Assembly (NCBI GenBank): GCA_017512705.1
Contig: JAFWEX010000030.1
Coordinates: 40,879-104,878, forward strand
DNA length: 64,000 nt
DNA from: Paenibacillus sp.
Lineage (GTDB): Bacteria > Bacillota > Bacilli > Paenibacillales > Paenibacillaceae
Reading direction: 5' to 3'
Below are positions 13,471 through 41,950 of this stretch, piece by piece; within the stretch, counting starts at the first letter, position 1; each line of letters starts with the position of its first letter. The translations under genes were made by a program, and so were the position numbers. Below the pieces are notes generated by a model. That model worked only from the letters and a program-made list of their open reading frames with translations. It searched no databases and was not told the origin of the DNA.

Positions 13471-14133
13471 GTTTCCCCCTGCTCCCGTGAAAAACCAAAG
13501 CGTGTTTTAGAAGCATGTCCCCAAGGAGCAGCGCGTAGTGGAGGAGGTGAGATCAATTCTATAGAAGCGAAGCGTTCGCGTTTGTCACCGGATGTTTCCC
13601 TATGAAGGGAAATTCCAAAACCATCCGAGGACAACCAGCGATCGAAAGAACGACTCACCGCCGGAACGCCCACCGCAGCTCCCTCCCTCGAGGTTTTCCC
13701 CCTGCTCCCGTGAAAAACCAAAGCATGTTTTAGAAGCATATCCCCGAGGAGTAGCGCGTAGTGGAGGAGGAGAGATCGATTCTGAAGAAGCGAAGCGTTC
13801 GCGTTTGTCACCGGTTTCCCTATGAAGGGGAAAATCCCAAATCATCCGGGGACAACTAGCGATCGAAAGAACGACTCACCGCCGGAACGCCCACCGCAGC
13901 TCCCTCACTCGAGTTTTTCCCCCTGCTCCTGTGAAAAACCTAAGCGTGTTTTAGAAGCATATCCCCGAGGAGTAGCGCGTAGTGGAGGAGGAGAGATCGA
14001 TTCTGAAGAAGCGAAGCGTTCGCGTTTGTCACCGGATGTTTCCCTATGAAGGGAAATTCCAAAACCATCCGGGGACAACCAGCGATCGAAAGAACGACTC
14101 ACCGCCGGAACGCCCACCGCAGCTCCCTCCGAA
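13471..14133 (+). repeat. Three tandem copies of a ~221-bp dispersed structured element
   Basis: Units start near 13471, 13693 and 13914 (periods 223 and 221 bp) and differ by few substitutions. Each holds a core (13567-13650, 13790-13870, 14011-14090) with hairpin GCGAA-GCG-TTCGC, then TTGTC-A-CCGGATG pairing with CATCCG-RGGACAA around an inner CCC/GGG hairpin, then AGCGATCGAAAG. The core recurs at 24671, 31447 and 41821. Open frames inside are fortuitous: they have no ribosome site and repeat with the unit. The 787-bp gap 13372-14158 holds only this and the terminator before it. Confidence 0.85.
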
Positions 14134-14158
14134 AGATGATGGCTTCTAACTTCCATGC

Positions 14159-15217
14159 TTAGTCAATGAACCCTTCCATGGTAGCCGTCGGCATCATATT
14201 CGACTGCCAAGCGCCTTTGCCGTATCCACCGTTATAGCCTGGGGTAGCTTGCGGCTCCCAGTAAAATACACCTTTCCCTTTTCCACTCGGCAAATTACGA
14301 ATCTGATTTTTCATCGCTGCAACAAAGGCTTTACCTGCTGCCGCCTGATTATTGTCCATGCCAATTTCAGATATCATAATTTCTTTACCATAACGATTGA
14401 TCAGATCCTTCGCATTATTCACTGTGTTGGTTACCGCGGTATTCCAGCCGGAAGCGGAAGGATAGAGGGACATGGCGATCATATCAAAATTAGCTCCGTT
14501 GTTGATCAGTCCACCGATGTTCCAAACAAACAGGGCATTATCATCGCCACCAGCCAGATGTACAATCGTTTTCGTGCCGCTGCTGATGGATTTTACAGCA
14601 TTATGTCCAGTGTTCACGAGCCATGCATAGTTCTTCATGTTCGTTGAAGCTTTGCCATCGTCCCATAACATGCCGTTACTGGTTTCGTTACCAATCTGTA
14701 CCCAATCCGGGGTTACACCCTTGCTTTGCATAGCGGTCATGACTTCACGAGTGTGATTCCAGACAGCATCCATTAATTGCTGGAACGTATAGTTTTTCCA
14801 AGCCGCCGGTTTGGTTTGTTTGCCTGGATCTGCCCAGGAATCGCTGTAATGGAGCGTCAGCATAACACTCATGCCTGCGTTTTTGGCGCGTTGTGCGAGA
14901 GAAGCAGCGCGGTCTTTATTCATGTAACCGTTACCATAATCATTCGATGGATTAACGAAAACCCGGATTCGAACGGAGTTAATCTGGTAATCTTTTTTCA
15001 GAATATCAATGATGTCTCGTTGTACTCCGTTTTTATCTTTCCACTTGTAGCCTTGAGCTTCCATACCGGGAACCCAACTGATGTCGGCCCCTTTGGCAAA
15101 ACTGGGTGCAGCGCTGGCGTGCTGGCTTGAGGGCAGTAAGATGGAAGTGAAAGTGAATACCATGACCCAAGCCAGCAGAATGCTTATTCTTTTGAAAACC
15201 CTTACATTTTTGGACAT
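14159..15217 (-). CDS. Secreted GH53 arabinogalactan endo-beta-1,4-galactanase
   Basis: The 352-residue protein has a signal peptide ending near Ala37 (SSQHASAA). The GH53 fold is marked by KGADISWVPGMEAQG, HYSDSWADPGKQ, the acid/base Glu178 in QIGNE and the nucleophile Glu284 in ISEIGM, with FYWEPQA near the end. It cuts beta-1,4-galactan side chains of pectin outside the cell. GAGGAGG lies 9 nt upstream of ATG 15217. No ganSPQ transport genes are adjacent. Plant-polymer use fits the GH119 enzyme nearby. Confidence 0.92.
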   Translation of the reverse strand: MSKNVRVFKRISILLAWVMVFTFTSILLPSSQHASAAPSFAKGADISWVPGMEAQGYKWKDKNGVQRDIIDILKKDYQINSVRIRVFVNPSNDYGNGYMNKDRAASLAQRAKNAGMSVMLTLHYSDSWADPGKQTKPAAWKNYTFQQLMDAVWNHTREVMTAMQSKGVTPDWVQIGNETSNGMLWDDGKASTNMKNYAWLVNTGHNAVKSISSGTKTIVHLAGGDDNALFVWNIGGLINNGANFDMIAMSLYPSASGWNTAVTNTVNNAKDLINRYGKEIMISEIGMDNNQAAAGKAFVAAMKNQIRNLPSGKGKGVFYWEPQATPGYNGGYGKGAWQSNMMPTATMEGFID

Positions 15218-15376
15218 TACGACATGCCTCCTCGATATAAGTTGAGATGCATCCTCATTATAGTCTTATGAGATCATACGGCTAAAGGGTCAATTTCCAA
15301 TATTTTGGTTGTTTTCTTAACCTCTAAAATCATTATGTTCAATAGGTATATTTCGATTAAATATAAAAGACAAAAC

Positions 15377-15401
15377 AAAAAGCCGTCCGAAGACGGCTTT
15401 T
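15377..15401. terminator. Strong bidirectional hairpin terminator
   Basis: AAAAAGCCGTC and GACGGCTTTT flank a CGAA tetraloop. On the minus strand it lies after the gene at 15598-15825 and about 160 bp upstream of the galactanase. Confidence 0.88.
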
Positions 15402-15560
15402 CTACCCGTGGCGCTTTTTTAAACATTGATCCGTATCCCGCGCCTCCATCATCAACCAAATTATTTGGAAGTTGTGGATCGGGTAAGGGACACGTTCAAC
15501 ATGACATTAGAAATGTTGACGCACCTCCTTTCCTTGTGGGAAGAGTATACAACATACTAT
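15402..15560 (-). other. Leader-like stretch with strong ribosome site and hairpin
   Basis: On the minus strand an AAGGAGGTG site near 15525 is followed at once by hairpin CAACAT/ATGTTG and a tiny frame (MLNVSLTRSTTSK), then the 15377 terminator. Layout resembles an attenuator or leader-peptide unit upstream of the galactanase, but no known RNA class or peptide was recognised. The rest of the 15218-15597 gap shows nothing else. Confidence 0.3.
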
Positions 15561-15597
15561 TTCGAAATACTAGTCTTTTTTTCGTATTTATGCAAAA

Positions 15598-15825
15598 TTA
15601 TTTTTCGGTTTGAAACATGGTTGTTTCCCTTGCATAATGGCTCTTCGTTCCGTTTTCGTTGCGAATCCGCACGAGGTCATCACTGATCTGCTCGACAATG
15701 CCGCGGCCGACTTCACAGTATACACCGGCAGGATCTTCTTGCCATGCAATGACTACACATTGCGATAGAGCTGCAGTGAAAAATTCGATGTTTTTTTGCA
15801 ATGTTCTAGGTTTGTTCGATTTCAT
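15598..15825 (-). CDS. Conserved-looking small protein of unknown function
   Basis: The 75-residue soluble protein is not recognised. AAAGGAG lies 6 nt before ATG 15825, a strong site. The middle reads CVVIAWQEDPAGVYCEVGRGIVEQISDDLVRIRN, a likely small beta-barrel-like stretch with two cysteines. It has no close partner and is followed by the 15377 terminator. No function is proposed. Confidence 0.6.
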   Translation of the reverse strand: MKSNKPRTLQKNIEFFTAALSQCVVIAWQEDPAGVYCEVGRGIVEQISDDLVRIRNENGTKSHYARETTMFQTEK

Positions 15826-15955
15826 GAGATACTCCTTTAAAATAGCTTAAAATTTGGAATAAAAACGACAGCCGATCAAATCACACTGTAGTTCACTTTA
15901 CCTTGTCTATTGTTCTTTGTAAAGGGATGGAAAAAGTTGCGCTCATGAGTTATCA

Positions 15956-15983
15956 TTTACATAAATTTAACAATACGTTAACA
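15956..15983 (+). promoter_or_regulatory. Pho box upstream of ppk
   Basis: TTTACA (15956), TTAACA (15967) and TTAACA (15978) recur with an exact 11-bp period. This is the direct-repeat PhoP recognition pattern of Bacillus (TTAACA separated by 5 bp). It lies about 95 bp upstream of the ppk start, so phosphate-starvation activation of ppk is inferred. Confidence 0.72.
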
Positions 15984-16078
15984 TTCCGATGACGCTTGGA
16001 GTCGATTACGAATAGTACAATTATAGTAGAGTTCGAATTGGAATTGGAATTGACATGCATCACATTCGGAGGCCATAC

Positions 16079-18160
16079 ATGCATAAGGATATTAGAACGG
16101 GCAATTATGTTAATCGTGATTTAAGTTGGGTTGAATTTAATCGGCGTGTGCTTCAGGAGGCTCAAGATCCGACTACACCGATGCTGGAGCGAATGAGGTT
16201 CCTTGGTATCGTTGCCAGCAATCTGGATGAGTTTGTCAGTGTACGACTTGCAGAGACTAAAGAAAAGATTAAGGCTGGATTCACGCAAAAAGATTTTACA
16301 GGATACACTCCTTCAGGGCTGTATCGCAGATTGATTAAACGAACCGGGGCTATGGTCGCGGAGCAGTATAAAACGTACCGTGAGCTCATTCGCCTTCTCG
16401 CGAAGAAGGGTGTGCACATCCAGGAGTATGTGGACCTTAACGTGACACAGCAAAAGGCTATGGACCAATACTATCATGACATTATTTTTCCGGTACTTAC
16501 ACCCATGGCCATCGACCAGAGTCGGCCGTTCCCGCTGGTTCACAACAAGTCGGTGTATCTTTCGATTATGCTGCAAAAAGAAGATGAACAGAAAGATGAG
16601 CCATTTATGGCCATCGTGCAGGTACCATCCAATCTTCCTCGGATCGTGAAGGTGCCCCTGCGGGCCAACAGCAAGAAAAAAACATTCATTCTAATTGAAG
16701 ATTTAATTAAACATCATGTGCATACCCTGTTTAGCGGATACGTATCGCTGGCTGTACAGGAGTTCAGGGTGACCCGCAACGCGGATCTCTCCATTAATGA
16801 AGAGGAAGCGGAAGACTTGCTGGAAGCCATTGAAAAAGAATTGCGCCGCAGACGCCGCGGGGCCCCTGTCAGACTGGAAGTGTGCAAGGATTTCCGTAGT
16901 GACGCACTGAAGGAGCTGCAAGACGAATTTGAGATTCAGGACCCGATCTTTGAAATCGACGGACCACTTGATCTCAGCTTCCTGGGCGGATTTGTAGATA
17001 GCCTTGAAGGCTTCTCTCATCTAAAATACAGTCCTGTACAACCAGTGTATCCGCCTGAGTTTCTGCCAAGGGAGAGTCATTTTGAGTTGCTGCGCAGACG
17101 GGATGTTTTGGTCCATCACCCCTACGAATCCTTTGAACCGGTAACGGATTTTATTCTGGAAGCTTCGGAAGATCCACAAGTATTAGCCATTAAGATGACG
17201 CTCTACCGAGTGAATGGTGATTCTCGACTTATTCCGGCGCTCGCTCTTGCAGCAGAGAGTGGCAAGCAGGTTACCGTCGTTGTAGAGCTAAAAGCCCGAT
17301 TTGATGAAGAACGGAATATTGCTTGGGCACGCAAATTGGAGAAAGCAGGTTGTCATGTTGTCTATGGTCTGGTTGGGCTGAAAACACATGCCAAGATCAT
17401 CCTCGTTGTACGCCGGGAGCAGCAAGGACTGCGACGTTACGTTCACGTCGGAACGGGCAATTACAACGAAAGCACGGCTAAAGTGTATACGGATGTGGGT
17501 CTGTTCACCTCTAACCCGATCATCGGGGAAGATGCCTCTGAACTGTTTAACGAGATTACCGGTTATTCCGGTCCGAAGGCATTGCAAGCATTTCGGGTGG
17601 CCCCAGACGGGATGAAGGACGAGCTCTTTGCGCTGATTCAGCGGGAGACAGAGCATGCCTTACAAGGTAAACGTTCCCGTATCATTGCCAAGATCAACTC
17701 CCTATCTCATCAGGATATGATTGATCAACTATATGTTGCCTCTCAAGCAGGGGTGCAGATTGATTTGATTGTCCGTGGGGTGTGCTGCCTACGTCCTGGT
17801 GTCGAAGGGCTTAGTGAGAATATTCGCGTAATTAGCATCGTAGATCGCTTCCTTGAGCATTCACGGTTGTTCTATTTCGAAAATGGGGGCACCCCGGACG
17901 TCTTCATTTCTAGCGCAGACTGGATGTCGCGGAACTTGAACCGACGTATTGAGCTAATGTGTCCCGTATTCGACCCTTCATTAAAAAAGATGCTGGTGGA
18001 TATTTTGAATCTGTCTCTGAATGATAATGTGAAGGCCAGACAGCTTATGCCAAACGGTAATTATATATTTGTAGAAAATGAAAAACCCCCGCTGAGAAGT
18101 CAGACGGAGGCGATGGGTATTATCCCTTGGAAGCCTGCTGAATGGAGTGTTTTAACGTAA
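16079..18160 (+). CDS. ppk: Polyphosphate kinase 1
   Basis: The protein of 693 residues polymerises the gamma phosphate of ATP into polyphosphate, reversibly. The N-terminal YVNRDLSWVEFNRRVLQEA, ASNLDEF and the phospholipase-D-like motifs fit PPK1. His437 (LKTHAKI) and His594 (FLEHSR) sit at the places of the E. coli autophosphorylation residues His435 and His592. GGAGG 7 nt upstream selects ATG 16079 over ATG 16055. A Pho box lies upstream. The 3' end overlaps the convergent ppx gene by 41 bp. Length is normal for the family. Confidence 0.95.
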   Translation: MHKDIRTGNYVNRDLSWVEFNRRVLQEAQDPTTPMLERMRFLGIVASNLDEFVSVRLAETKEKIKAGFTQKDFTGYTPSGLYRRLIKRTGAMVAEQYKTYRELIRLLAKKGVHIQEYVDLNVTQQKAMDQYYHDIIFPVLTPMAIDQSRPFPLVHNKSVYLSIMLQKEDEQKDEPFMAIVQVPSNLPRIVKVPLRANSKKKTFILIEDLIKHHVHTLFSGYVSLAVQEFRVTRNADLSINEEEAEDLLEAIEKELRRRRRGAPVRLEVCKDFRSDALKELQDEFEIQDPIFEIDGPLDLSFLGGFVDSLEGFSHLKYSPVQPVYPPEFLPRESHFELLRRRDVLVHHPYESFEPVTDFILEASEDPQVLAIKMTLYRVNGDSRLIPALALAAESGKQVTVVVELKARFDEERNIAWARKLEKAGCHVVYGLVGLKTHAKIILVVRREQQGLRRYVHVGTGNYNESTAKVYTDVGLFTSNPIIGEDASELFNEITGYSGPKALQAFRVAPDGMKDELFALIQRETEHALQGKRSRIIAKINSLSHQDMIDQLYVASQAGVQIDLIVRGVCCLRPGVEGLSENIRVISIVDRFLEHSRLFYFENGGTPDVFISSADWMSRNLNRRIELMCPVFDPSLKKMLVDILNLSLNDNVKARQLMPNGNYIFVENEKPPLRSQTEAMGIIPWKPAEWSVLT

Positions 18161-19646
18161 CTCCCCAGGCTTCCTGCAGATCTTTGATGGCATCTTCTAA
18201 GCCGTTCAGTTCCAATAAAGGCTCGTCTGTACAGGTCAATGTGACCTGCAGCGAGTCTTTTTCTCTGACCGCATGAATGGCGGTAATGCTCTCCGCACGG
18301 TTGATCGCTTCGGCTGCACGCAGCAGAGAGCCAATACGATGAGCATGCTGCTCGTCGGAATCTTTTAGAATGTCCGCATGCTTTTGCAGCAATTGAGGTG
18401 TTCTTTTTTTCGGATGATAGTCGGCCGCAATGGCACTAAGAATGGTTTCTCTATGGGAGAGACCATAAATACTTGCATTCATAATCCAGTATGCTGAATG
18501 CTGTGTGTATCTGAAGTAGTTAATCTGTTTGCCAGCCATGTGCAGCATGGAGGAGGCGTACAGGATTCGCTCGTCGGATGGGTCAGGAACAGCCTCCTGC
18601 AAGGCGGTGTATAGAATCACTGTATCCTGATGGATCCGGTTCAGACGTTTTTCTGGAATGGGCGGACCGTAATGAAGAAAATTACGGATGCTGTCCTTCA
18701 GTGCATCTGGTGCTGAAGGTTGACCTGATGCTAGATAATCCCTCAGTAACCCGTCACGAAGTCCTGCTCCGCTGACAACATAACGATCGCCTTGGATGAT
18801 GCGGAAGATCGTTCGCAGAATCAGCACGCCCGGTACAATAATATCAGCTCGATCCTTGGCAAGACCAGGGACCTTTTTGCGTTGAGCAGAAGTAAGAGAT
18901 GGCAGGGAACGAGCGATATTTTCCATTGCTTCTTCTCCCATTTCATAATGATGTGTCACAGGAAGAGAATATTGTGTTCGCTTTTGCTCTACTTTTGCAA
19001 GTGTACGCATCGTCCCACCTAGTCCAATCAACGGCAGGCCCGGGTGTTCTCCGATCCAATCCAGTCCGTGTAATGCTTCAGTGACGTCCCTGCACAGTGC
19101 ATCTTGATTTGCTTCTGACCATTGATCCTCGCCTCCATAACGGGCATGTGAGTTCACGGCACCGATCGGCAAGGAAACGCTATGTAATCTTTCGCGATTG
19201 CGGAATACGGTGATCTCCGTGCTACCACCCCCGATATCAACCACAAATCCATCCGTTAGATCAATGGACTGAACGACGCCCAAAAATCCATAGTAAGCTT
19301 CCCGATCACCAGAAACACATTCGATCGTAAGTCCAGTTGCACTCTCCAGCCATGCTATAATCTGTGCCGCATTGGTCGCATTACGAATTGCTGCGGTCGC
19401 TGCAGCACGAATCAGCTCGGTCTCATATGCCTCACAGATGGCTTTGAATTGCCGCAAGATAGTAATCGTCGTCGTTAAGGACGACTTCGGAATAGAGCCA
19501 TCCTGTTCCACAACTCCACTAAGCCGAGCAGCATATTTGTCTTCATGAATAATGCGGTACGCTCCATCGTTATTCACTTCATAGATCACTAGACGGATGG
19601 AGTTCGAGCCAATATCAACAATTCCAAGTGTTTTATTTCGTGTCAT
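18120..19646 (-). CDS. ppx: Exopolyphosphatase / Ppx-GppA phosphatase
   Basis: The protein of 508 residues begins LGIVDIGSNSIRLVIYEV, the ASKHA phosphate-1 motif, and has FVVDIGGGSTE as phosphate-2. The C-terminal third (from about 320) is the HD-like helical domain of longer Ppx proteins. It releases phosphate from polyphosphate ends or hydrolyses pppGpp. AAGGAG selects ATG 19646. It is convergent with ppk, overlapping it by 41 bp, so the synthesising and degrading enzymes face each other. The small gene at 19673 lies 26 bp upstream and probably shares its transcript. Confidence 0.92.
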   Translation of the reverse strand: MTRNKTLGIVDIGSNSIRLVIYEVNNDGAYRIIHEDKYAARLSGVVEQDGSIPKSSLTTTITILRQFKAICEAYETELIRAAATAAIRNATNAAQIIAWLESATGLTIECVSGDREAYYGFLGVVQSIDLTDGFVVDIGGGSTEITVFRNRERLHSVSLPIGAVNSHARYGGEDQWSEANQDALCRDVTEALHGLDWIGEHPGLPLIGLGGTMRTLAKVEQKRTQYSLPVTHHYEMGEEAMENIARSLPSLTSAQRKKVPGLAKDRADIIVPGVLILRTIFRIIQGDRYVVSGAGLRDGLLRDYLASGQPSAPDALKDSIRNFLHYGPPIPEKRLNRIHQDTVILYTALQEAVPDPSDERILYASSMLHMAGKQINYFRYTQHSAYWIMNASIYGLSHRETILSAIAADYHPKKRTPQLLQKHADILKDSDEQHAHRIGSLLRAAEAINRAESITAIHAVREKDSLQVTLTCTDEPLLELNGLEDAIKDLQEAWGVTLKHSIQQASKG

Positions 19647-19672
19647 AAGCATCTCCTTCTACAGAGGTTCAT

Positions 19673-21105: not shown

Positions 21106-21114
21106 GAGGAACGC

Positions 21115-23179: not shown

Positions 23180-24373
23180 ATGAGCAGCATTCCCAAAATT
23201 GTCATTCTCGGAGCGGGATATGGCGGGATTCTGACAGCCCAGCGGCTGCAGAAGGAGCTAAATTACAACGAAGCTGATGTCACATTAGTGAATCGGCATG
23301 ATTACCACTATATTACAACCCATCTACATATGCCGGCAGCAGGCACGGATAAAATAGAACACGCAAGAGTGTCTATTTCCAAACTGATTGATGAGTTCAA
23401 GATTGATCTCGTGAAATCGTCAGTGAAAGAAATACGTCTTCAGGACCGTAAGGTCATTCTGGAGGACGGGACGTTATCCTATGATTACTTAATTATTGGA
23501 CTGGGCGGGGAGCCCGAGACCTTCGGTATACCCGGGATGCTTGATTATGCGATGACCATTCGCAGCATCAATTCCGTGAGGCTGATTCGAGAACACATTG
23601 AATATCAATTTGCAATGTACAAAAATGATAATAAACGAAATCGTATTCGTTTTGTAGTAGGCGGAGCTGGCTTCAGTGGAGTTGAGTTTGTCGCTGAACT
23701 AGCTGATCGTATTCCGCAGTTGTGCAAGGAATTCGATGTTGATCCAAAACATGTGCATATTTATAACGTCGAAGCTGCACCTTCTGCACTACCAGGGTTT
23801 GATCCGGAGCTTGTGGAGCATGCAATGAGTGTGTTGAAGAAAAAAGGCGTGACATTTAAAATCGGTGTTCCGATCAAGCAATGTCTTCCAGATGGCGTTA
23901 TTATTGGTGAAGGCGAAAAGATTGAAGCGGCCACTGTGGTATGGACTGGTGGTATTCGCGGGAATTCTTTACTTGAACAGGCTGGTCTTGAAGTGATGCG
24001 TGGCCGTGTGAAGGTGGATGAATATTTACGTGCTCCTGGGCATGAACATGTGTATGTCATTGGGGACAATTCTCTTGTATTTAACAAGGAAGGCAAACCT
24101 TATCCACCGACAGCACAGATTGCGATGCAGCAGGGTGTGAATTGTGCCAAAAATATTGTGGCTGCCATTCGTAACAAGCAACCTCAACCTTTCGAATTTA
24201 CCAGCAAAGGTACCGTAGCTTCTCTGGGTAGAGGGGAAGCCATTGCCGTCGTTGGCGATAAGAAGTACAAGGGCTGGAAGGCAGCTCAGCTGAAAAAGCT
24301 AGTGGATCTGCGCTACTTGTTCATTATCGGAGGTATTCCGCTAGTCCTGAGGAAAGGACGGTTTTTCGGATGA
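23180..24373 (+). CDS. Type II NADH dehydrogenase (NADH:menaquinone oxidoreductase)
   Basis: The 397-residue protein has IVILGAGYGGILTAQRL at its start, the second fold IRFVVGGAGFSGVEFVAEL near residue 160, AATVVWTGGIRGN, VYVIGDNS and the AQIAMQQG motif of NDH-2. The C-terminal helix region (VDLRYLFIIGGIPLVLRKGRFF) anchors it to the membrane. It feeds electrons from NADH to menaquinone without proton pumping. Its B. subtilis counterpart would be YumB. GGAAGGAG lies about 9 nt upstream. The stop codon overlaps the next start by 4 bp. Confidence 0.92.
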   Translation: MSSIPKIVILGAGYGGILTAQRLQKELNYNEADVTLVNRHDYHYITTHLHMPAAGTDKIEHARVSISKLIDEFKIDLVKSSVKEIRLQDRKVILEDGTLSYDYLIIGLGGEPETFGIPGMLDYAMTIRSINSVRLIREHIEYQFAMYKNDNKRNRIRFVVGGAGFSGVEFVAELADRIPQLCKEFDVDPKHVHIYNVEAAPSALPGFDPELVEHAMSVLKKKGVTFKIGVPIKQCLPDGVIIGEGEKIEAATVVWTGGIRGNSLLEQAGLEVMRGRVKVDEYLRAPGHEHVYVIGDNSLVFNKEGKPYPPTAQIAMQQGVNCAKNIVAAIRNKQPQPFEFTSKGTVASLGRGEAIAVVGDKKYKGWKAAQLKKLVDLRYLFIIGGIPLVLRKGRFFG

Positions 24374-24624
24374 GACATTGTAGTGTTCAGGTTCGCGGGT
24401 TATTAACACGTGAGGAACTGGATCGATATAATGGTTTGATGCAAGTAGGGGGTTATTTGGAGGAACAGAATCAATATGACCTGGCCTACATCGTACAGAA
24501 AGAAGTAGATATTCTCATTCTACCCGCAATTGAGCGGCTGAAAGAGAAGGGGCGCGACCGTGATCGTGCAACTGCCGAGTTTCTGGAATCTCTGAAAGCG
24601 GTTGATGAAGAGGAGCAGGATTGA
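24370..24624 (+). CDS. Small protein translationally coupled to NDH-2
   Basis: The 84-residue soluble protein starts inside the NDH-2 stop region (ATGA overlap), a sign of translational coupling. It is charged and probably helical, with EELDRYNGLMQVGGYLEEQNQYDLAYIVQKEVDILI (shown here in parts: EELDRYNGLMQ, YDLAYIVQKEVDIL). It is not recognised as a known family. A role with NADH dehydrogenase is inferred only from coupling. Confidence 0.7.
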   Translation: MRHCSVQVRGLLTREELDRYNGLMQVGGYLEEQNQYDLAYIVQKEVDILILPAIERLKEKGRDRDRATAEFLESLKAVDEEEQD

Positions 24625-24670
24625 GACTTCAGTTAGGTTGTAAAAAGAGTTTACACTTATACACTTCAAT

Positions 24671-24803
24671 AACAGAATAATCTTTCAATCGCTGTTATCC
24701 CCAGATTTTTTGGATTCCCTTTTGTTAAAGGGGAAAATTCGGTGATAAGCGTATGCTTCCGATGTAGCTCTCTTGCAGAAAGCTTTTAGGCGACCGCTTC
24801 GCT
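24671..24803 (-). repeat. Dispersed structured element, copy 4
   Basis: Read on the minus strand, TTATCACCGAATTTT pairs with AAAATCTGGGGATAA around an inner CCC/GGG hairpin and is followed by CAGCGATTGAAAG. The GCGA-AGCGG-TCGC hairpin is present at 24791-24803 but separated from the main stem by an extra 30-40 nt. The tail GATTATTCTGTTATTGAAG is close to that of the 31.4-kb copy (GGTTGTTCTGTCATTGGAG). Confidence 0.78.
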
Positions 24804-24903
24804 TTTCTAGTTTATTTCTGTCCTCTCCGTTTTTGTGTAAACATTAAACAATTCAACTTATATAGATCCTAATCAAGCTTGAAGTAGGTAATATTGAAAA
24901 ACT

Positions 24904-24947: not shown

Positions 24948-24956
24948 CTGCCCTGA

Positions 24957-25031: not shown

Positions 25032-25778
25032 TTACAGCTTCAGCATCTCTTCCAGTGAACTCTCATTCAGCAGGCTACCTACGTAGAACGAGCCGAATTC
25101 GCCATAGCGTGCACTTACTTCATCAAAACGCATCTCATACACCAGTTTCTTGAATTGAAGTGCATCATCTGCAAACAGAGTAACGCCCCATTCCCAATCA
25201 TCTAATCCGACGGAGCCGGTAATGATCTGTTTCACTTTACCTGCATAGCTGCGACCGATCATGCCATGACTACGCATCATGGTGCGGCGCTCGTCCATAG
25301 ACAGCATGTACCAGTTGTCCGTCAACTCACGCTTTTTGTTCATCGGGTAGAAACAGATGTATTGACGCTGTGGCAGCACGGGTTTAAGACGGGCAATAAT
25401 TTCCGGATTTTGCATCGGATCCTCGCCCTCTTTACCGAGATAATTACTCAGTTCAACGACACTCACATACGAATAAGCTTTAGTTGTATATTTAGCAAAC
25501 GTTGTTTTATTGAAAGCGTTCTCTACTGCTTTTAGATCTTCCAGCGTCTCGCGCAGATGCATCATGACAAAGTCCGCTTTCTGGCCTACTACTGTATAGA
25601 CAACGGTACTGCCTTGGGAATTTTCCTCAACGTTTTTCCATTCGTTCCAAAACTCCTGAAGCTCGTCTAGAGCAACAGCACGCTCTTCATCATCCGCCGC
25701 TTTCCAGGCAGTCCAGTTCATCGAGCGGAAATCATGCAGGGCATACCAGCCCTCTAGGGTTGATGCAGCTTCGTTCAT
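25032..25778 (-). CDS. hemQ: Hydrogen peroxide-dependent heme synthase (coproheme decarboxylase)
   Basis: The protein of 248 residues is the chlorite dismutase-like HemQ of Gram-positive bacteria. It converts coproheme III to heme b with peroxide in the coproporphyrin-dependent pathway. Family stretches are [14 protein letters not shown] at the start, [12 protein letters not shown], and [17 protein letters not shown], which contains the proximal heme histidine, then [19 protein letters not shown] 9 nt upstream selects ATG 25778 over an in-frame upstream start. No hem genes are adjacent. Confidence 0.93.
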
Positions 25779-26004
25779 GGATATTATTCCTCCTGCAGGT
25801 TGTATTTCCATATCCCGGTAGGGATGGGTTAGTGCTTTATCGTTATATTGTATCCCATCATGAAGCAGAAGGGCAAATGATCTTCTCATGAAAACAATGA
25901 GATTGGTCTAGAAAGTTCGTTGCTTCGCCACATTTTTTGCGGTAAACTTACTACTATCCAGAAGAGAAAACCGAAAGTGTGAAAGAAGAGGTGATCGTTA
26001 GCCG

Positions 26005-30910: not shown

Positions 30911-30977
30911 GGAAGTGTCGTTCGCGACGTTACAGGTTAAAATAAATTCGTACGTACTATATAAGGAGGACAATTTC

Positions 30978-31295
30978 ATGGCTATTGTTAACGTATCCGA
31001 TCAATCCTTTAACACTGAAGTCGAAGGAGAAGGAACGGTTTTGGTTGATTTTTGGGCGCCTTGGTGTGGTCCTTGTAAAATGCTTGCGCCAATCTTGGAA
31101 GAATTGTCCGCAGAAGTTGGCGATTCCGTAAAAATTGCAAAAGTGAACGTGGATGAGAATCCAGAATCTGCTTCCCGTTTTGGTGTAATGAGTATTCCAA
31201 CATTGATCTTCTTCAAAGATGGTCAACCGGTAGATAAAGTGGTTGGTCTGAACTCGAAAGAAGCACTCAAAGGTATCATCGAAAAACATCAATAA
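30978..31295 (+). CDS. trxA: Thioredoxin
   Basis: The 105-residue protein has the WCGPC active site (DFWAPWCGPCKMLAP) and the cis-proline region MSIPTLIFFKDG. It reduces disulfides in cytoplasmic proteins with electrons from thioredoxin reductase. AAGGAGG 9 nt upstream selects ATG 30978. uvrC follows after a terminator and a dispersed repeat. The trxA-uvrC pairing is conserved with Bacillus. Confidence 0.97.
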   Translation: MAIVNVSDQSFNTEVEGEGTVLVDFWAPWCGPCKMLAPILEELSAEVGDSVKIAKVNVDENPESASRFGVMSIPTLIFFKDGQPVDKVVGLNSKEALKGIIEKHQ

Positions 31296-31312: not shown

Positions 31313-31343
31313 CGCCTCCGGTTTACATGCCGGGGGCGTTTTG
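31313..31343 (+). terminator. Terminator after trxA
   Basis: CGCCTCCGG pairs with CCGGGGGCG (one G-U pair), followed by TTTT. Confidence 0.8.
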
Positions 31344-31419
31344 CGTCGAAAAGTGCTATGTAGGACAATATAAAAGTAAAACTAATTTTTGCAACATACT
31401 TGAACCATTCACACAATAA

Positions 31420-31560
31420 CGAAAAGGACAGAGAAAACCTGAAAAAGCGAAGCGTTCGCCTTTATCACCGGATTTTCCCTTTTAAAAGGGAGTCAAAAAA
31501 TCTGGGGATAACAGCGATTGGAAGGTTGTTCTGTCATTGGAGTGGCGAGTGTGAATTCTA
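31420..31560 (+). repeat. Dispersed structured element, copy 5, upstream of uvrC
   Basis: The core starts with GCGAA-GCG-TTCGC (31447-31459). TTATCACCGGATTTT pairs with AAAATCTGGGGATAA around CCCTTTTAAAAGGG, then CAGCGATTGGAAGG. The tail resembles the 24.7-kb copy. The element lies between the trxA terminator and uvrC, so it should be in the uvrC leader or just upstream of its promoter. Nothing else was seen in 31344-31610. Confidence 0.82.
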
Positions 31561-31610: not shown

Positions 31611-33665
31611 ATGGACCCATTTTTGGAGAAGTTAGAAGAGCAGGAGAAGGCACTCGAGCAGATTCGTCACAAACTTGCACTGCTTCCGGATATGCCGGGC
31701 TGTTACTTGATGAAGAACAGTGAGGGTACGATTATTTATGTCGGTAAAGCCAAAGTGTTGAAAAACCGTGTGCGATCTTATTTTATTGGTAGTCATAACG
31801 GAAAGACGCAGCGACTTGTTTCTGAGATTCGTGATTTTGAATATATTGTCACGGGCAGCAACATGGAAGCACTCATTCTGGAGTGTAACCTGATTAAAAA
31901 ACACATGCCTCGATATAATGTTTTGCTCAAAGATGATAAGACTTTCCCTTATCTTAAAATAACGAATGAAAAACATCCACGGCTCGAAGTGACCCGACGT
32001 GTGCTGAAAGATAAAGCCAAATACTTCGGACCTTATCCGAACTCGTATGCAGCACACCAGACCAAAAAACTACTGGATCGTATGTATCCACTCCGCAAAT
32101 GTGGTGTAATGCCAAAGGAAGTTTGCCTGTATTACCATATGGGGCAATGCCTCGCTCCTTGTGTGAAAGAAGTGAACAAAGAGCAATATGATGAGATTTC
32201 TCAGGAAATCGGATCATTTCTAAGTGGTGGGCATGAGGAGATTAAGAAGGATTTGCAGCGTAAGATGCAGGAAGCGGCTGAAGACTTGTATTTTGAACGT
32301 GCCAAAGAGCTACGTGATCAAGTAATTGCCATTGATGCCATCATGGAAAAACAGAAAATTACGATGGCGGATGCCAGAGACCGCGACGTCTTTGGATTTG
32401 CGATTGATAAAGGCTGGATGTGTGTCCAGATTCTATATATGCGTCAGGGAAAAATGATTGAACGTCACGTGTCGACCTTTCCGTTTTACGGAGAGCCTTA
32501 CAATGATTTTATGTCCTATGTAACTCAATATTACAGTGACAATCCGGCTTTGCCGCAGGAAATTTTGCTGCCAGAGATGCCCAAAGAGCTGATCACTGAC
32601 GAAGACACGAACATTACGTCAAATGCTGATGAAGCTAACCCTTCAGACCATGTTCATGCTGTAGTAACGGCTGAATCTACTCAGGAGGAGATGCAAGTTG
32701 GAATGGATCAAACGGCTGCCTCCTTGCCACTTGTTGCCGAGACTCGTACAGCCTATACAACCGAAGCACCAGATGCGTCAGGAGCCAAACTGCCATCCGA
32801 GATGGAAGATCCGTCACAGATGGCTGCATCCCTACAGGAGTGGTTGGAGATTAAGGTACACATTCCGCAACGTGGGTTGAAGCGTCAGATGATTACGATG
32901 GCACTCGACAATGCAAGAGTCGCTTTGGAGGAGAAGTTCCGTCTTATTGAACGTAATGAAGAACGGACATCCAAAGCTTCCGAGGGACTCGGACGCTGGA
33001 TTGGCCTGGAGCAGTTGCGCCGGATTGAGGCTTTCGATAACTCGAACATTCAGGGAACGAACCCGGTATCGGCGATGATTGTCTTTACAGATGGTAAACC
33101 GGACAAGAAGGAATACCGCAAATATAAGGTACGTTCTGTTGAAGGGCCGGACGATTATGAAACGATGCGAGAAGTGATTCGCCGTCGTTATGAACGTGTG
33201 CTTAAAGAAAATCTCACCCAGCCAGACCTGATTGTAGTCGATGGTGGTAAAGGTCAGATTTCAGCTGCTGTGGATGTGCTTGAAAACGAGCTGGGGCTCT
33301 TTATTCCAGTTTGCGGATTGGTGAAGGATGCTAAACACAAAACGTCACAGTTGATGATCGGTAATCCGCCAGAGGTTATTAACTTGCCGCGGGATAGTCA
33401 GGAGTTTTATCTGCTTCAACGGATTCAAGAAGAGGTTCACCGGTTTGCAATCTCGTTTCACCGTGAGCAGCGAGGTAAATCCATGGTTACTTCCCGGCTG
33501 GATTCCATTCCAGGCATCGGAGAGAAGCGACGCAAACTTTTACTGAAGCATTTTGGCTCTTTACGCAAAATTAAAGAGGCCAGTGTCGAAGACTTCCGGC
33601 CTCTATCCATTGGTGATAAATTGGCAAAACAAATTATTGCAGCACTTCGTGATGAGGAGTCGTGA
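31611..33665 (+). CDS. uvrC: Excinuclease ABC subunit C
   Basis: UvrC makes both incisions in nucleotide excision repair. The 684 residues include the GIY-YIG domain ([31 protein letters not shown]), the UVR motif region ([17 protein letters not shown]), the RNase H-like nuclease ([28 protein letters not shown]) and C-terminal helix-hairpin-helix motifs ([18 protein letters not shown]). About 84 extra residues (roughly 325-408) form an acidic, Thr/Ser/Ala-rich linker before the nuclease. Without it the length is the usual ~600. GGGAGGGAGG precedes ATG 31611. The 3' end overlaps the convergent protease gene by 32 bp. Confidence 0.95.
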
Positions 33666-35543: not shown

Positions 35544-35549
35544 CGCTGT

Positions 35550-37084: not shown

Positions 37085-37103
37085 AGGGGTTCGTGAGGAT
37101 AGA

Positions 37104-37775
37104 ATGAGAAAACAGCAGTTTGCGGTAATTGGTCTTGGACGGTTCGGATCGAGTCTGGCGCAAGAGCTAATGGAACAAGGTTATGAGGTACTTGGTATTG
37201 ATAAAAATGAAGAGCTTGTGGAAGACATGAGAGACTTGGTCACTCATGCTGTCGTGGCGGATGCTACCGATGAGGAAGTGCTTCGTTCACTGGGTATCCG
37301 CAATTTTGACTGTGGAATCGTCGCTATTGGCGCCGATATCCAGACGAGCATCCTCACCGCCATTTTGCTCAAAGAACTGGGTGTCAAGACGGTCGTGGCC
37401 AAGGCAATCTCTGTTCTTCACGGACGGGCACTTGATAAACTAGGCATTGACCGAGTGGTTTACCCTGAACGTGATATGGGCATTCGAGTGGCTCACCAAT
37501 TGGTTACACCCAACCTGCTGGATTACATCGAATTGTCCAATGATTACAGCATCGTAGAGATGAAGGTGCCCGCCTGTCTGCACAATAAAACCCTCTCTAC
37601 GCTCAATGCCCGTGTACGCTTCAACTGCAGTATTGTAGCACTGCAAAAAGAAGCCGGGGTCATTATTGCCCCGACCGCGATGGATTCGCTGCAAGCAGGT
37701 GATATTATGGTCATTATTGGGAATAATGATGATATTGAACGTTTTGAGGAAGAGGTCATAAGTCAGGAAAACTGA
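37104..37775 (+). CDS. ktrA: Potassium uptake regulator KtrA/TrkA family
   Basis: The protein of 223 residues has an N-terminal RCK domain (FAVIGLGRFGSSLAQEL, GxGxxG, binding ATP/ADP or NAD) and a C-terminal RCK_C domain (about 140-222), which in KtrA binds c-di-AMP. It forms an octameric ring gating KtrB. GAGG 7 nt upstream selects ATG 37104. It follows ktrB by 19 bp. Confidence 0.93.
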   Translation: MRKQQFAVIGLGRFGSSLAQELMEQGYEVLGIDKNEELVEDMRDLVTHAVVADATDEEVLRSLGIRNFDCGIVAIGADIQTSILTAILLKELGVKTVVAKAISVLHGRALDKLGIDRVVYPERDMGIRVAHQLVTPNLLDYIELSNDYSIVEMKVPACLHNKTLSTLNARVRFNCSIVALQKEAGVIIAPTAMDSLQAGDIMVIIGNNDDIERFEEEVISQEN

Positions 37776-37815
37776 GCCAATTCGCTGTTAGCAGTGATGG
37801 CCGTTAAAAGATCGA

Positions 37816-38739
37816 TCAAGGCGCTGTCGCCCTCCGTGAAGGCAATGGCGCCTTTGCTGTAAAAAATGCAGTCGTCTCCCTGATCCATTGTCTGGAGGTT
37901 TCGCTGAGGTCTTCCTTTTCCCCATAGATCATGCAAGTTGTTCTTCGGGTCTGCTTCAACTGAGGGAGATGCACAGCAACAAGATCATTATCTGCCAGCA
38001 GCTGCGGACGAAGATAGGATTTGGGAAGCAGGGCAGCGGCTTTGCAGGTAGGCAGCAGCCGGATAATCGCTTCAAATGAATCGATTTCCATTCGAATATC
38101 AGGCATCACGGTACAACGTTGGAAAAGGTCGTCTGTTAGTTTGCGGTACCATGTTCCTTTGGAGAACGTAATCATTGGCATATCTTGCAAATGCTCCATA
38201 TCGGCTTCTTTGCCTGCAAGCGGATGTGTAAGTGGCACGACGAGCTCCAGATGATCATCAAACAGGGGGATACAGTTGAGCCCCGTTTCGCTAATGGACG
38301 AAGCAACGATGCCAACATCGGCTTTTTTGTCACGTACAAAAGAAACGATCTCATGTGTCTTGCCTGTTAACAGCTTTAGCTCGGTATTCGGATGTTTCTC
38401 CATAAAAGTATTAACCAGCGGGGGCAGGGTCGTCTGAAGTGTCGTTAGACTGGCTCCGAGGGTAATAATGCTCTGTTCCTCGTCTTTGTACTGAGACAAC
38501 ATGGTGAGAAATTTCTGCTGTTGCTGTTTTTGCTCAACGGCGAAGGTATAGGCAAGCTGACCTACGCTGGTTAATTCCAGCCGTTTGCCCCGGCGATGGA
38601 ACAGCGAAACCCCAAGTTCATCCTCAAGCTTGGAGATTTTACGTGAGAGCGCAGGCTGAGACAGGTTTAGCAACTTGGAAGCACGATTCAGGCTGGATTG
38701 TTCCACCACTGCCGCAAATGCATTTAGATCTTCGAACAT
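37816..38739 (-). CDS. LysR-family transcriptional regulator
   Basis: The protein of 307 residues has the winged helix-turn-helix at 1-60 (AAVVEQSSLNRASKLLNLSQPALSRKISKLE) and a LysR substrate-binding domain. (Recognition helix: SQPALSRKISKLE.) AGAGGTC precedes ATG 38739. It is transcribed away from sdhCAB, the usual arrangement for a LysR protein that controls its divergent neighbour. CcpC-like control of a TCA enzyme is possible but unproven. Confidence 0.9.
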   Translation of the reverse strand: MFEDLNAFAAVVEQSSLNRASKLLNLSQPALSRKISKLEDELGVSLFHRRGKRLELTSVGQLAYTFAVEQKQQQQKFLTMLSQYKDEEQSIITLGASLTTLQTTLPPLVNTFMEKHPNTELKLLTGKTHEIVSFVRDKKADVGIVASSISETGLNCIPLFDDHLELVVPLTHPLAGKEADMEHLQDMPMITFSKGTWYRKLTDDLFQRCTVMPDIRMEIDSFEAIIRLLPTCKAAALLPKSYLRPQLLADNDLVAVHLPQLKQTRRTTCMIYGEKEDLSETSRQWIRETTAFFTAKAPLPSRRATAP

Positions 38740-38859
38740 GAACACAGACCTCTTTTCTTATGGATGTGATTCTTGCCCTTGATTAATGGTTTGATCTATT
38801 GTAAGCCAGATAAAGCTGTTGTTTTGATTTTATAACGTGTAAAAAGGTTGAATTTAATG

Positions 38860-38912
38860 CTTATACCTATAAGTTATAACATTTAATAATTATATTGCAA
38901 TTCCCTTATAAG
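38860..38912. promoter_or_regulatory. Palindromes between lysR and sdhC
   Basis: CTTATA-CC-TATAAG (38860-38873) and CTTATAAG (38905-38912) share the same half-site, about 42 bp apart, in an AT-rich stretch. These are plausible sites for the divergent LysR protein. Confidence 0.45.
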
Positions 38913-38927
38913 AAAAAAAGGAGTAAC

Positions 38928-39023
38928 ATGAATTGTGACACAAGTTGTTCACACCTGATGAAATCGGAACAATTTGTCGAACCTTCTCATGCAAGAAGGA
39001 ATTTTGTCATGATATACGAATAG
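38928..39023 (+). CDS. Possible 31-residue leader peptide before sdhC
   Basis: ATG 38928 follows AAAGGAGT at 5-6 nt and opens a 31-codon frame (MNCDTSCSHLMKSEQ...). It contains two cysteines and no helix. It ends 43 bp before sdhC. A hairpin CCTTCT/AGAAGG lies within it. It may be a leader peptide or a fortuitous frame. Confidence 0.3.
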   Translation: MNCDTSCSHLMKSEQFVEPSHARRNFVMIYE

Positions 39024-39066
39024 TTTTATGAAAACGTTGTATTTAGCGAAAGGGGATCGACATTTT

Positions 39067-39735
39067 ATGAAAGGGTTTTACTCCAGAAAGCTGCACTCCT
39101 TGCTCGGCGTCATTCCGCTCAGTCTGTTCTTTGTAGAGCACTTGGTGACGAACTTCACAGCAGTTGAAGGCGGCAAAGAAGCTTTTTATGGTGCCGTTGC
39201 ATTTCTAAACGGTCTGCCTCTTGTTATTGTTATTGAGGCGCTCCTCATCTGGTTGCCGCTGTTCTATCACGGTGTATACGGTCTGTATATTGCTTATCAG
39301 GCTAAGCCTAACGTGGGACGTTACGGCAATGAGCGCAACTGGCGCTATACCCTGCAAAGAATCAGCGGGATTATCACATTTGTTTTCGTGATCTGGCATG
39401 TATGGGAGACGCGTGTACAAATTGCTTTGGGTAATGTAACACATGAAGAGATTGGCGGCGTCATTCATAATGCTGTGACGAATCCGATAACCTTTGCGAT
39501 CTATATGATCAGTGTGGTTGCGGCGTCATATCACTTTGCGAATGGTCTCTGGTCGTTCCTCGTTAGCTGGGGAATTACGGTTGGACCTCGTGCGCAGCGC
39601 GTATCGTCTTATGTGTGCATGAGCCTGTTCGCACTGGTTTCCATTATGTTTATCGCTTCATTGTTTGCTTTCCGGAACGTTGATTTCCAGACAGCGACTT
39701 CAATGATCGACACGGTAAAATCGATTTTGGTCTAA
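39067..39735 (+). CDS. sdhC: Succinate dehydrogenase cytochrome b558 subunit
   Basis: The protein of 222 residues starts MKGFYSRKLHSLLGVIPLSLF, as in B. subtilis SdhC, and has five membrane helices with the heme-ligand histidines (RRLHSLLG-type His, HLVTNF, YHGVYGLYI, WHVWETR, SYHFANGLW). It anchors SdhAB and passes electrons to menaquinone through two b hemes. AAAGGGGAT 10 nt upstream selects ATG 39067 over ATG 39028. Confidence 0.94.
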   Translation: MKGFYSRKLHSLLGVIPLSLFFVEHLVTNFTAVEGGKEAFYGAVAFLNGLPLVIVIEALLIWLPLFYHGVYGLYIAYQAKPNVGRYGNERNWRYTLQRISGIITFVFVIWHVWETRVQIALGNVTHEEIGGVIHNAVTNPITFAIYMISVVAASYHFANGLWSFLVSWGITVGPRAQRVSSYVCMSLFALVSIMFIASLFAFRNVDFQTATSMIDTVKSILV

Positions 39736-39866
39736 AATCGGCGAATGAACGCTTTATAATATTAATTTAAATTTATGTATTCATGCTTATTGGTTTAGTC
39801 ATTTGTAATTCATGCTTACAGATTAAATCTTAAGATTAATGCTTACTTAGAGGGAGTGAACTAGCA

Positions 39867-41609
39867 ATGGCATCATCGAATGTAATTATTGTGGGCGGCG
39901 GTCTCGCGGGATTGATGGCGGCGATCAAATCGGCTGAAGCCGGAGTCCATGTTCATTTATTTTCACTGGTTCCTGTAAAAAGATCACACTCCGTATGTGC
40001 CCAAGGCGGTATCAACGGTGCGGTAAATACCAAAGGGGAAGGCGACTCCCCATGGGTACACTTTGACGATACGGTATACGGAGGAGACTTCCTCGCCAAC
40101 CAGCCGCCAGTTAAAGCGATGTGTGAAGCAGCACCTGGCATTATCCACCTGATGGACCGGATGGGTGTAATGTTTAACCGTACACCGGAAGGTTTGCTGG
40201 ATTTCCGTCGTTTCGGGGGTACCAAGCATCACCGTACTGCGTTTGCTGGCGCGACAACGGGCCAACAGTTGCTCTATGCACTGGATGAGCAAGTACGCCG
40301 CTGGGAAGCAGCAGGCCTCGTGACCAAGTATGAGAACTGGGAGTTCCTGCAGGCTGTTATCGATGATGAAGGCGTATGCCGTGGTATTGTGGCACAGGAT
40401 CTCAAAACAATGAAAGTTCAGACCTTCCCTGCAGAAGCCGTTATTTTGGCAAGCGGTGGTCCGGGTATCATTTTTGGTAAAACGACAAACTCCGTTATCA
40501 ACACGGGTACAGCGGCAAGTGCGGTATACCAGCAAGGTGTGAATTACGCGAATGGAGAGTTCATCCAGATTCACCCTACAGCGATTCCGGGAGACGACAA
40601 GCTGCGTCTGATGTCTGAATCTGCTCGTGGTGAAGGTGGTCGGATCTGGACGTACAAAGACGGTAAACCTTGGTACTTCCTTGAGGAGAAATATCCATCC
40701 TACGGTAACCTTGTACCGCGTGATATCGCAACACGTGAAATCTTCAGTGTCTGCGTAGACATGGGACTGGGTGTGAATGGCGAGAATATGGTCTATCTTG
40801 ACCTTTCTCACAAAGATCCGAAGGAACTGGATGTTAAACTGGGCGGAATTATCGAAATCTATGAGAAGTTCATGGGTGACGACCCGCGTAAAATTCCGAT
40901 GAAAATCTTCCCCGCAGTTCACTATTCGATGGGCGGTATGTGGGTAGATTATAACCAAATGACGAACATCCCTGGCTTGTTTGCAGCTGGCGAATGCGAA
41001 TATCAATATCATGGTGCGAACCGTTTGGGTGCAAACTCACTCGTATCCGCCATCTATGGTGGGATGGTAGCTGGACCGAAAGCTGCTGAATATATCAAAG
41101 GACTGAAGAAATCATCGGCAGATATCTCTTCTTCCGTATTCGATGGTTATACAAAACGCCAAACCGAGAAATACGAAGGCATCCTAAAAATGCAAGGTAC
41201 CGAGAATGCTTACGTAATTCACAAAGAGTTGGGCGAATGGATGACAGCCAATATGACCGTGGTTCGTTACAACGACAAGCTTGAAGCAACCATTGGCAAA
41301 ATCAAGGAACTGAAAGAGCGTTATGGCAAAATCAATATGTACGACAACTCGGGTTGGAACAACCCTGGTGCGGCATTTACCCGCCAATTGTGGAATATGC
41401 TTGAGCTTGCAGAAGCAATGACCCTTGGTGCGTTGCTCCGTAACGAAAGTCGCGGTGCACACTACAAGCCGGAATTCACTGAGCGTAACGATGAGGAGTT
41501 CCTGAAAACGACCATCGCAAGCTGGACGAAGGAAGGCCCGCAGATCTCGTACGAGCCAGTGGATGTATCCCTGATTCCACCGCGTATCCGGGACTACTCG
41601 AAAGACTAA
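39867..41609 (+). CDS. sdhA: Succinate dehydrogenase flavoprotein subunit
   Basis: The 580-residue subunit oxidises succinate to fumarate with covalent FAD. It shows the FAD fold VIIVGGGLAGLMAAIKSAEAG (glycines at about 8-13), HSVCAQGGINGA with the flavin-linked histidine region, HPTAIPGDD, the active-site RGEGGRIW, and HYSMGGMWVD. GAGGGAGTG precedes ATG 39867. The operon order is C-A-B. A dispersed repeat separates it from sdhB by 386 bp. Confidence 0.97.
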   Translation: MASSNVIIVGGGLAGLMAAIKSAEAGVHVHLFSLVPVKRSHSVCAQGGINGAVNTKGEGDSPWVHFDDTVYGGDFLANQPPVKAMCEAAPGIIHLMDRMGVMFNRTPEGLLDFRRFGGTKHHRTAFAGATTGQQLLYALDEQVRRWEAAGLVTKYENWEFLQAVIDDEGVCRGIVAQDLKTMKVQTFPAEAVILASGGPGIIFGKTTNSVINTGTAASAVYQQGVNYANGEFIQIHPTAIPGDDKLRLMSESARGEGGRIWTYKDGKPWYFLEEKYPSYGNLVPRDIATREIFSVCVDMGLGVNGENMVYLDLSHKDPKELDVKLGGIIEIYEKFMGDDPRKIPMKIFPAVHYSMGGMWVDYNQMTNIPGLFAAGECEYQYHGANRLGANSLVSAIYGGMVAGPKAAEYIKGLKKSSADISSSVFDGYTKRQTEKYEGILKMQGTENAYVIHKELGEWMTANMTVVRYNDKLEATIGKIKELKERYGKINMYDNSGWNNPGAAFTRQLWNMLELAEAMTLGALLRNESRGAHYKPEFTERNDEEFLKTTIASWTKEGPQISYEPVDVSLIPPRIRDYSKD

Positions 41610-41631
41610 GCTGAAGATAGTAATGGCGATC

Positions 41632-41950
41632 CGAAGGGCGTTCCGCAATCGGAACATCCATCCGATCACCAACACTGCTTTGTCACTTTTTAATTCAGGA
41701 AGCCTAGCATCAGCAGGCTTCTACCAAAAATATAGCAAACCAGCATGAATGGATTGAGCTTCCAGCAAAGCAGCACGAGGTGCAAAGGCGTAGCGTAGGG
41801 AGCGGAAATGCCCGAAAGAAGCGAAGTGCTCGCCTTTATCACCGAATTTTAACCCTGCAAAGGGTTGATCAAGGAAATTCGGGGATAACAGCGATCCAAA
41901 GGGCATTCCGCGACCGAAGCGTTTATCCCGGCACCAATACCAATGCTTTG
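41632..41950 (+). repeat. Dispersed structured element, copy 6, inside the sdh operon
   Basis: The core (41821-41910) has GCGA-AGTGC-TCGC, then TTATCACCGAATTT pairing with AAATTCGGGGATAA around AACCC/GGGTT, then CAGCGATCCAAAGG. The 3' flank GCGATCCAAAGGGCATTCCG (41892-41911) is duplicated at 41636-41655 as GCGATCCGAAGGGCGTTCCG, so the element is bounded by ~60-bp imperfect direct repeats. It fills most of the sdhA-sdhB gap. Confidence 0.82.

Follow-up and report, generated by a model that had tools for sequence, protein, structure and literature searches.

A folded, MITE-like intergenic repeat of Paenibacillus and its order

Introduction

The bcr repeats of the Bacillus cereus group (bcr1–bcr18) are intergenic, multi-copy elements, of which bcr1–3 resemble miniature inverted-repeat transposable elements (MITEs) and bcr10 and bcr18 have a conserved RNA structure (PMC3446304). 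In the available part of that paper, copies are often located within untranslated regions or operon spacers, and 84 of 165 and 62 of 155 copies in two strains (40–51%) are present in mRNA. Here an intergenic repeat with a folded core is described from a 64,000-nucleotide stretch of Paenibacillus sp. (GenBank assembly GCA_017512705.1, contig JAFWEX010000030.1, positions 40,879 to 104,878 of the forward strand), referred to below as the window. Like the bcr repeats, as far as the available description of them goes, it is intergenic, multi-copy and structured or MITE-like; the likeness is one of description, with no bcr sequence compared. A title cited by PMC3446304 calls bcr1 specific to the B. 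cereus group. Unlike bcr1 as so described, the Paenibacillus repeat spans many genera of one order.

The Correia (NEMIS) elements of Neisseria are co-transcribed with genes and cut at their ends by RNase III; ERIC elements are also co-transcribed, and insertion of an ERIC element can expose an RNase E site (both from the available part of PMC10969869). Unlike these elements as described there, the Paenibacillus repeat has a conserved interior core and not terminal repeats alone, its arms vary and covary, and no target duplication was found. REP/BIME elements comprise many extragenic palindromes per genome with proposed mRNA-stabilising roles, and REPs are 20–40 bp long with GTAG or CGTC tags (available part of PMC3733652). 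Like REP/BIME elements in this account, the present repeat forms many extragenic palindromes per genome; unlike REPs, it is approximately 195 bp long. REP/BIME elements are linked with RAYT (Y1) transposases, whereas the Y1 domain is missing from several genomes with many copies of the Paenibacillus repeat.

Results

Copies in the window and size of the family

A covariance-model search (cmsearch) places a copy at each of the six sites where the original prediction, made from the letters of the window, had put a core. The helix variants listed there are also present: the outer helix reads TTATC/GATAA in three cores and TTGTC/GACAA in the other three, and the second helix reads CCGAATTT/AAATTCGG, CCGGATTTT/AAAATCTGG or CCGGATG/CATCCG. 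All six share a structured core of approximately 130 nt (Table 1). Three of them form one tandem array at 13.5–14.1 kb with a repeat unit of approximately 221 bp, and the window therefore holds fewer than six independent copies; the genus and the order provide the support. The remaining copies, at 24.7, 31.4 and 41.8 kb, are in gene spacers and on both strands, as had been stated.

In the genome that carries the window (G000), the exact 15-mer GGGGAYAACAGCGAT occurs 26 times and its reversed control does not occur. A covariance model built from 16 copies of this genome (model R1) has 56 matches there at E <= 0.01, the best at 5e-34, with 150 candidates scored of 1809 found at first look. One match is a weak antisense overlap of another copy and two are core-deleted forms of approximately 65 nt; the genome carries about 55 copies. 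Chance is excluded as the cause of the six cores because of the 26 versus zero exact sites and the 56 model matches. Depending on the model search, no more than 150, 88, 11 or 8 candidates were scored in each genome, and copy numbers are lower bounds. Among the relatives compared (G020, G069 and G087), G020 has 103 matches among 150 scored candidates. Other high-copy genomes contain 78 (G003), 64 (G004) and at least 88 copies (G008).

Model R1 has matches in all 24 genomes of a genus sample and in 3 of 15 other genomes of the order. When the covariance-model search is extended across the order, 230 of 296 genomes and 30 of 48 genera contain matches. In a phylum sample, 7 of 398 genomes match, all seven in the family of the source organism and four in its genus; this is a lower bound, with stricter filters and 8 candidates scored per genome. 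At least 118 named loci carry the exact 3' motif; among the 118 listed, the title names Paenibacillus for 117 and 'Bacillus sp. FJAT-27264' for the other. These loci were gathered by that motif, which biases conservation in A3, and 80 of 118 were used. The six cores are thus correctly observed and understate a large repeat family of Paenibacillus and its order.

The original prediction knew of no described family with this pattern. Rfam (release 15) has no match at gathering score in the window, and for the six loci nothing comes near the gathering score at E <= 5, with six matches all below it; identity with an Rfam family was dropped. No published paper that apparently describes the repeat was found in the literature covered, subscription papers and preprints lying outside it. 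No known transposon or Rfam family was thus matched. The sharp inverted-repeat ends of one subfamily and presence/absence at orthologous sites, both described below, are transposon-like.

Fold and covariation

In the 16 own-genome copies, 18 of 34 pairs have two-sided changes and 88.2% of cells are paired, compared with 79.2% when shuffled and at most 58.0% when slid. The covariation proposed from six copies persists in 72 diverse sequences from across the order, far above both controls. In this alignment, which was fitted to the model and so favours structure, 89.8% of cells pair (74.0% shuffled, at most 51.2% slid), and two-sided changes are present in 29 of 34 pairs and 394 cells (105.7 cells shuffled, at most 107 slid). 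Pairing is weak in the inner hairpin, P4, at 66.5% of cells. Motifs kept in the consensus are AGAAGCG, AGCG.TCGC, CTTT and AACAGCGATCG. Stems are free to vary and unpaired loops are near-invariant and conserved across the order; the unpaired AGAAGCG is itself near-invariant. In four sequences (L208:4472-4593, L368, L387 and L089), the inner stem is wholly different yet paired, and the flanking unpaired motifs are largely kept.

The GCGA-rich hairpin of the original prediction, in which TCGC pairs with an upstream GCGA (P2), is replaced by a better supported pairing with the downstream GCGA of CAGCGAT(C/T) (P2'). Pairing in P2' is complete in 67 of 71 rows, and three of its pairs together hold four two-sided cells (TCCC/GGGA, CCGC/GCGG and, twice, TTGC/GCAA). 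P2 pairs fully in 51 of 71 rows, and its one two-sided cell (L397) also fits P2'. P2 was rejected as the best pairing on these counts and on the choice of the downstream partner by RNAalifold; it may be an alternative state. For 26 of 45 selected full-length copies, RNAalifold returns one rod of 47 pairs, 11 with two-sided changes, which includes the downstream pairing, the C[GGA]G/C[GRA]G loop and all arm columns except the outermost 8. The predicted fold is best read as one long imperfect hairpin, a rod with conserved internal loops. One of these loops, C[GGA]G/C[GRA]G, would be symmetric; the other would be large and asymmetric, with AGAAGCG on its 5' side.

Selection had been suggested to act on a folded RNA or a DNA hairpin. 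Selection on the fold is supported. Folded RNA is favoured over a DNA hairpin, short of proof, because the strand as drawn has 64 G-U pairs against 19 A-C mismatches (186 and 145 when shuffled) and because copies follow transcription.

Orientation relative to genes and replication

Genes were taken from a codon-based call made with a custom script. The G020 set consists of 71 clusters from 86 of the 103 matches, a non-random selection, and the named contigs comprise 89 clusters from 80 loci. Between co-directional genes, 46 of 54 clusters in G020 are in the sense orientation and 8 are antisense; in the named contigs, 46 of 50 are sense and 4 antisense. The other 17 clusters in G020 are between convergent genes (6), between divergent genes (9) or inside called genes (2), and the rest of the named-contig clusters are convergent (19), divergent (10) or not callable (10). 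With a simpler gene call, the sense and antisense counts are 42 and 5 among 93 named-contig elements and 39 and 6 among the 71 G020 clusters. One copy was opened in each of five genomes with few copies (1, 1, 1, 4 and 6 matches), and all five are sense and between co-directional genes. These copies occupy four different sites: before a type IV leader peptidase gene (the upstream gene is pilin-like by reading, with no Pfam hit), between thiolase and acyl-CoA dehydrogenase genes (two genomes), in a solute-binding protein/response regulator spacer and in a ROK/fucosidase spacer.

Copies in G020 follow the replichores. Their direction is that of replication in 42 of 49 cases with leading-strand genes and in 1 of 5 with lagging-strand genes (Fisher p 0.005), and a copy follows its gene in 4 of 5 lagging cases. 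A replication-strand effect on orientation was rejected, since gene direction explains the pattern. Between convergent or divergent genes, 11 of 15 copies run with replication (p 0.12).

The genes downstream of copies include sdhB, uvrC and genes for a phage tail tube, a chaperone, a type IV leader peptidase, an acyl-CoA dehydrogenase, a response regulator and a fucosidase. Judged from these names, they do not appear to form the shared downstream gene class of a riboswitch-like element.

Ends, length variants and arrays

In one subfamily, flanks are conserved out to CTATATAAGTTGAAC and GTTCAACTTATATAG and then fall to background. These terminal inverted repeats are present at >=9/11 letters at both ends in 47 of 313 distinct elements. 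At 12/17 letters, 53 copies have both ends; the other copies have arms of other sequence. This subfamily is thus a short element with terminal inverted repeats, as MITEs are. Of the 53 two-ended copies, 28 are 190–198 bp and 22 are 231–236 bp long, the longer class having a 39-nt insert; the rest are 182, 203 and 227 bp. The end stems covary in some copies, with GTTGAAC/GTTCAAC swapped in L225 and ATATAAGATCAAC/GTTGATCTTATAT in L216. No direct repeat of 2–9 nt occurs beyond the ends of the 53 copies above shuffled levels, although a TA or TATATA duplication inside the ends would escape this comparison.

The 39-nt insert is a hairpin-rich module (AAAAGCTTTCTG..GAAGCATATGC) that many copies carry at either of two closely spaced positions. 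It is gained or lost between close relatives, and L014, L021, L031 and L033 carry it in the window's own genome. At the 24.7-kb site it is present in G000 and G020 and not in G069 or G087, and it is a feature beyond the earlier description of the six cores.

Tandem arrays of 2–4 copies make up 10 of the 71 clusters in G020, and tandem periods are 200–271 bp. In L412, L416 and L085, the element is directly followed by tandem repeats of its 3' part only, a hint of slippage or template-directed copying. Solo outer palindromes occur among core-deleted remnants.

Presence/absence and candidate mobilising systems

Flank comparisons give 1045 placements, 950 occupied and 95 empty; the counts are redundant, biased by the choice of loci that hold the element and unpolarised as to gain or loss. 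Ten comparisons were read. The whole element is present in one locus and absent from the other in three pairs at 94–96% flank identity (L249/L181, L147/L194 and L216/L198), the L216/L198 copy itself being a core-deleted form. The other seven comprise four that look similar to these three at 83–92% flank identity, two partial deletions in prophages and one array difference. As in MITEs, the element is therefore present or absent at orthologous sites.

The Y1 domain (PF01797) is present in 9 of 20 genomes searched and was not found in G000, G003, G004 or G008 despite their many copies. RAYT/IS200-type mobilisation was rejected as a general cause on this evidence. The end sequence matches 54 places in G000 and G020. 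At 12 of these loci, no larger partner sharing the ends was found within 3 kb (letters read in 6; Y1 the only transposase family sought); lone ends, truncated copies or ordinary copies were seen. An autonomous version with an internal gene was dropped as no orphan half among the examined loci pointed to one.

Among IMG/VR stretches with the motif, 23 of 30 contain a full or short copy. With one copy as query, INPHARED records give no match and two plasmid records match, both from P. cellulosilyticus. There is no sign in these collections of phage-driven spread, which was set aside. Three prophage-like IMG/VR contigs (L268, L269 and L273) each have two copies approximately 660 bp apart, and related contigs lack one of the two or carry it truncated. 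In L273, both copies are sense and lie between tail sheath, tail tube and XkdN-like genes.

Orthologous copies

Orthologous copy pairs number 109, of which the 105 with <99% flank identity were tallied. In P3, 17 of 18 double changes keep pairing (2.9 doubles expected under independent sides). For P1 and P3 together, 58 doubles are kept and 29 broken (13.6 expected if sides are independent). The pairs are non-independent, and either copy-to-copy conversion or a shifted alignment of P1 can look like a double change. A clean compensated case is the 41.8-kb copy, in which one P1 pair reads C-G in G000 and T-A in G069, a member of the same species.

Gene neighbourhoods in the window

Table 1. Coordinates of the repeat copies and associated features in the window.
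Feature	Position	Strand	Details
Inverted repeat, 16 nt, 94% complementary	13434..13469	+	directly precedes array; terminator-like by eye
Array unit 1	13472..13686	+	core 13537-13668 (cmsearch core limits)
Array unit 2	13695..13909	+	core 13761-13889; P3 5' strand short by 3 nt
Array unit 3	13916..14130	+	core 13982-14112
Copy with CTATATAAGTTGAA left end	24627..24865	-	core 24662-24831
39-nt insert within 24.7-kb copy	24749..24787	-	
Copy (core)	31418..31544	+	flanked by thioredoxin-like 30915-31295 and uvrC-like 31611-33665
Copy (core)	41792..41921	+	spacer of sdhA-like 39867-41609 and sdhB-like 41996-42760

The first array unit has outer arms GGAGC...GCTCC, a P1 of GTGAG.TC.ATTCT/AGAACGACTCAC and a P3 of TTGTC-A-CCGGATG/CATCCG-A-GGACAA. 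The 24.7-kb copy has its 5' end at 24865; its 3' end is degenerate and is placed by reading at approximately 24627. It sits between convergent genes, an 84-aa open reading frame (24370-24624, plus strand) and a chlorite-dismutase-like gene (25032-25889, minus strand). A terminator-like hairpin (31313-31338) precedes the 31.4-kb copy. Simple scans of the sdhA-sdhB spacer gave no promoter- or terminator-like site. This spacer has one copy in G000, one in G069, two in G087 and three in tandem in G020. At the end of the window, 63408-64000 aligns repeatedly to G069 at 480-bp steps, a repeated unit unrelated to the folding repeat.

Discussion

The reading preferred here, held with middling confidence, is that this is a lineage-specific MITE-like repeat of the order whose transcribed copies act in cis on processing or stability. 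Each copy would encode one long imperfect RNA hairpin with conserved internal loops. Judged by position, copies are on the transcribed strand and either follow genes, precede them or occupy operon spacers. A general RNA-binding or RNA-processing factor may recognise the transcribed rod, RNase III being the obvious candidate for a long helix. The rod would then set the stability or processing of its transcript, so that sense copies would be tolerated or kept and antisense copies lost. Copies would spread via a system acting in trans. Three features speak for an RNA-level role in the host transcript: the rod with its near-invariant loops and free stems, the preference for one strand, and the bias towards sense. 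A mobile repeat is what the sharp ends, the polymorphism, the arrays and the decay speak for. The two are compatible, as in the bcr repeats and in the Correia and ERIC elements, on which RNase III or RNase E acts. In the bcr case, bcr3 goes with slower decay (a table row of 3.6 vs 2.5, read as half-lives, in the available part of PMC3446304).

Several observations weigh against a cis-acting role. In the same part of PMC3446304, decay is correlated with bcr3 only and not with bcr1 or bcr2. Copies are also found between divergent genes (9 of 71 clusters in G020, 10 of 89 in the named contigs) and in antisense (8 and 4, respectively), and the neighbours named above share no function. Copies without the core and half copies are common; at the 31.4-kb site in G069, for instance, the core is deleted. 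At orthologous sites, single changes in P1 and P3 break a pair 107 times and keep it 83 times, and 28 of the 69 double changes in P1 disrupt pairing. Many copies therefore drift, and a decaying mobile element fits them better than a maintained regulator.

This drift is shared ground with a purely selfish DNA element, a possible though less probable explanation. The fold would be needed only as DNA, in an extruded cruciform or single strand, for transposition, and the covariation would come from mobile master copies. The sense bias would arise either because antisense copies are lost or because the element inserts into DNA that is transcribed or single-stranded. The sharp inverted ends, the polymorphic sites, the single-change decay and the covarying outer ends (the swap in L225, and L216) all fit this explanation. 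It is harder to reconcile with the lack of a duplicated target outside the ends of the 53 two-ended copies and with the missing Y1/RAYT domain in G000, G003, G004 and G008, Y1 being the only transposase tested. Freely varying stems beside near-invariant unpaired loops, with G-U preferred on one strand, also count against it.

A further reading, for which the chance seems small, is a mobile element selected as a folded RNA: an RNA-recognised or RNA-templated repeat that spread order-wide with sense insertion and no target duplication, and whose end stems would be free to change if they stay paired. If this were true, such an RNA-unit mobile element would belong neither with classical MITEs nor with any known class of RNA.

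It is improbable that the copies represent a trans-acting or ligand-binding structured RNA class (a multi-copy small RNA or riboswitch-like element) spread by duplication. Near-invariant unpaired nucleotides speak for such a class, and TCGC with two competing partners, the upstream GCG and the downstream GCGA, could be a switch. However, more than 50 to 100 copies are present per genome, the named neighbours are without a common function, and neither of the two copies scanned contains a promoter- or terminator-like site on its own strand. It is very improbable that covariation arose without selection, through quasi-palindrome correction by template switching at hairpins. The long fold-back arms, and the tandem and partial duplications that show replication errors at the hairpin, would suit this. 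Correction would erase conserved mismatches, yet the internal loops persist and are conserved across the order, and one P3 opposition is A-G in 43, C-G in 38 and T-A in 7 of 93 rows.

The repeat is a new example of a structured intergenic mobile repeat, unusual for its order-wide spread, core conservation and sense bias. Up to approximately 100 or more copies of one RNA-like fold are present in the gene spacers of a Paenibacillus genome, and one lies inside an apparent sdhA-sdhB operon. Where they are not accounted for, such copies can confuse transcriptomes, assemblies and regulatory annotation. The mode of spread is notable in that covarying ends occur without evident duplication. The family provides many natural replicates of one structured element across transcripts, and the old question of whether intergenic repeats act on mRNA is therefore directly testable.

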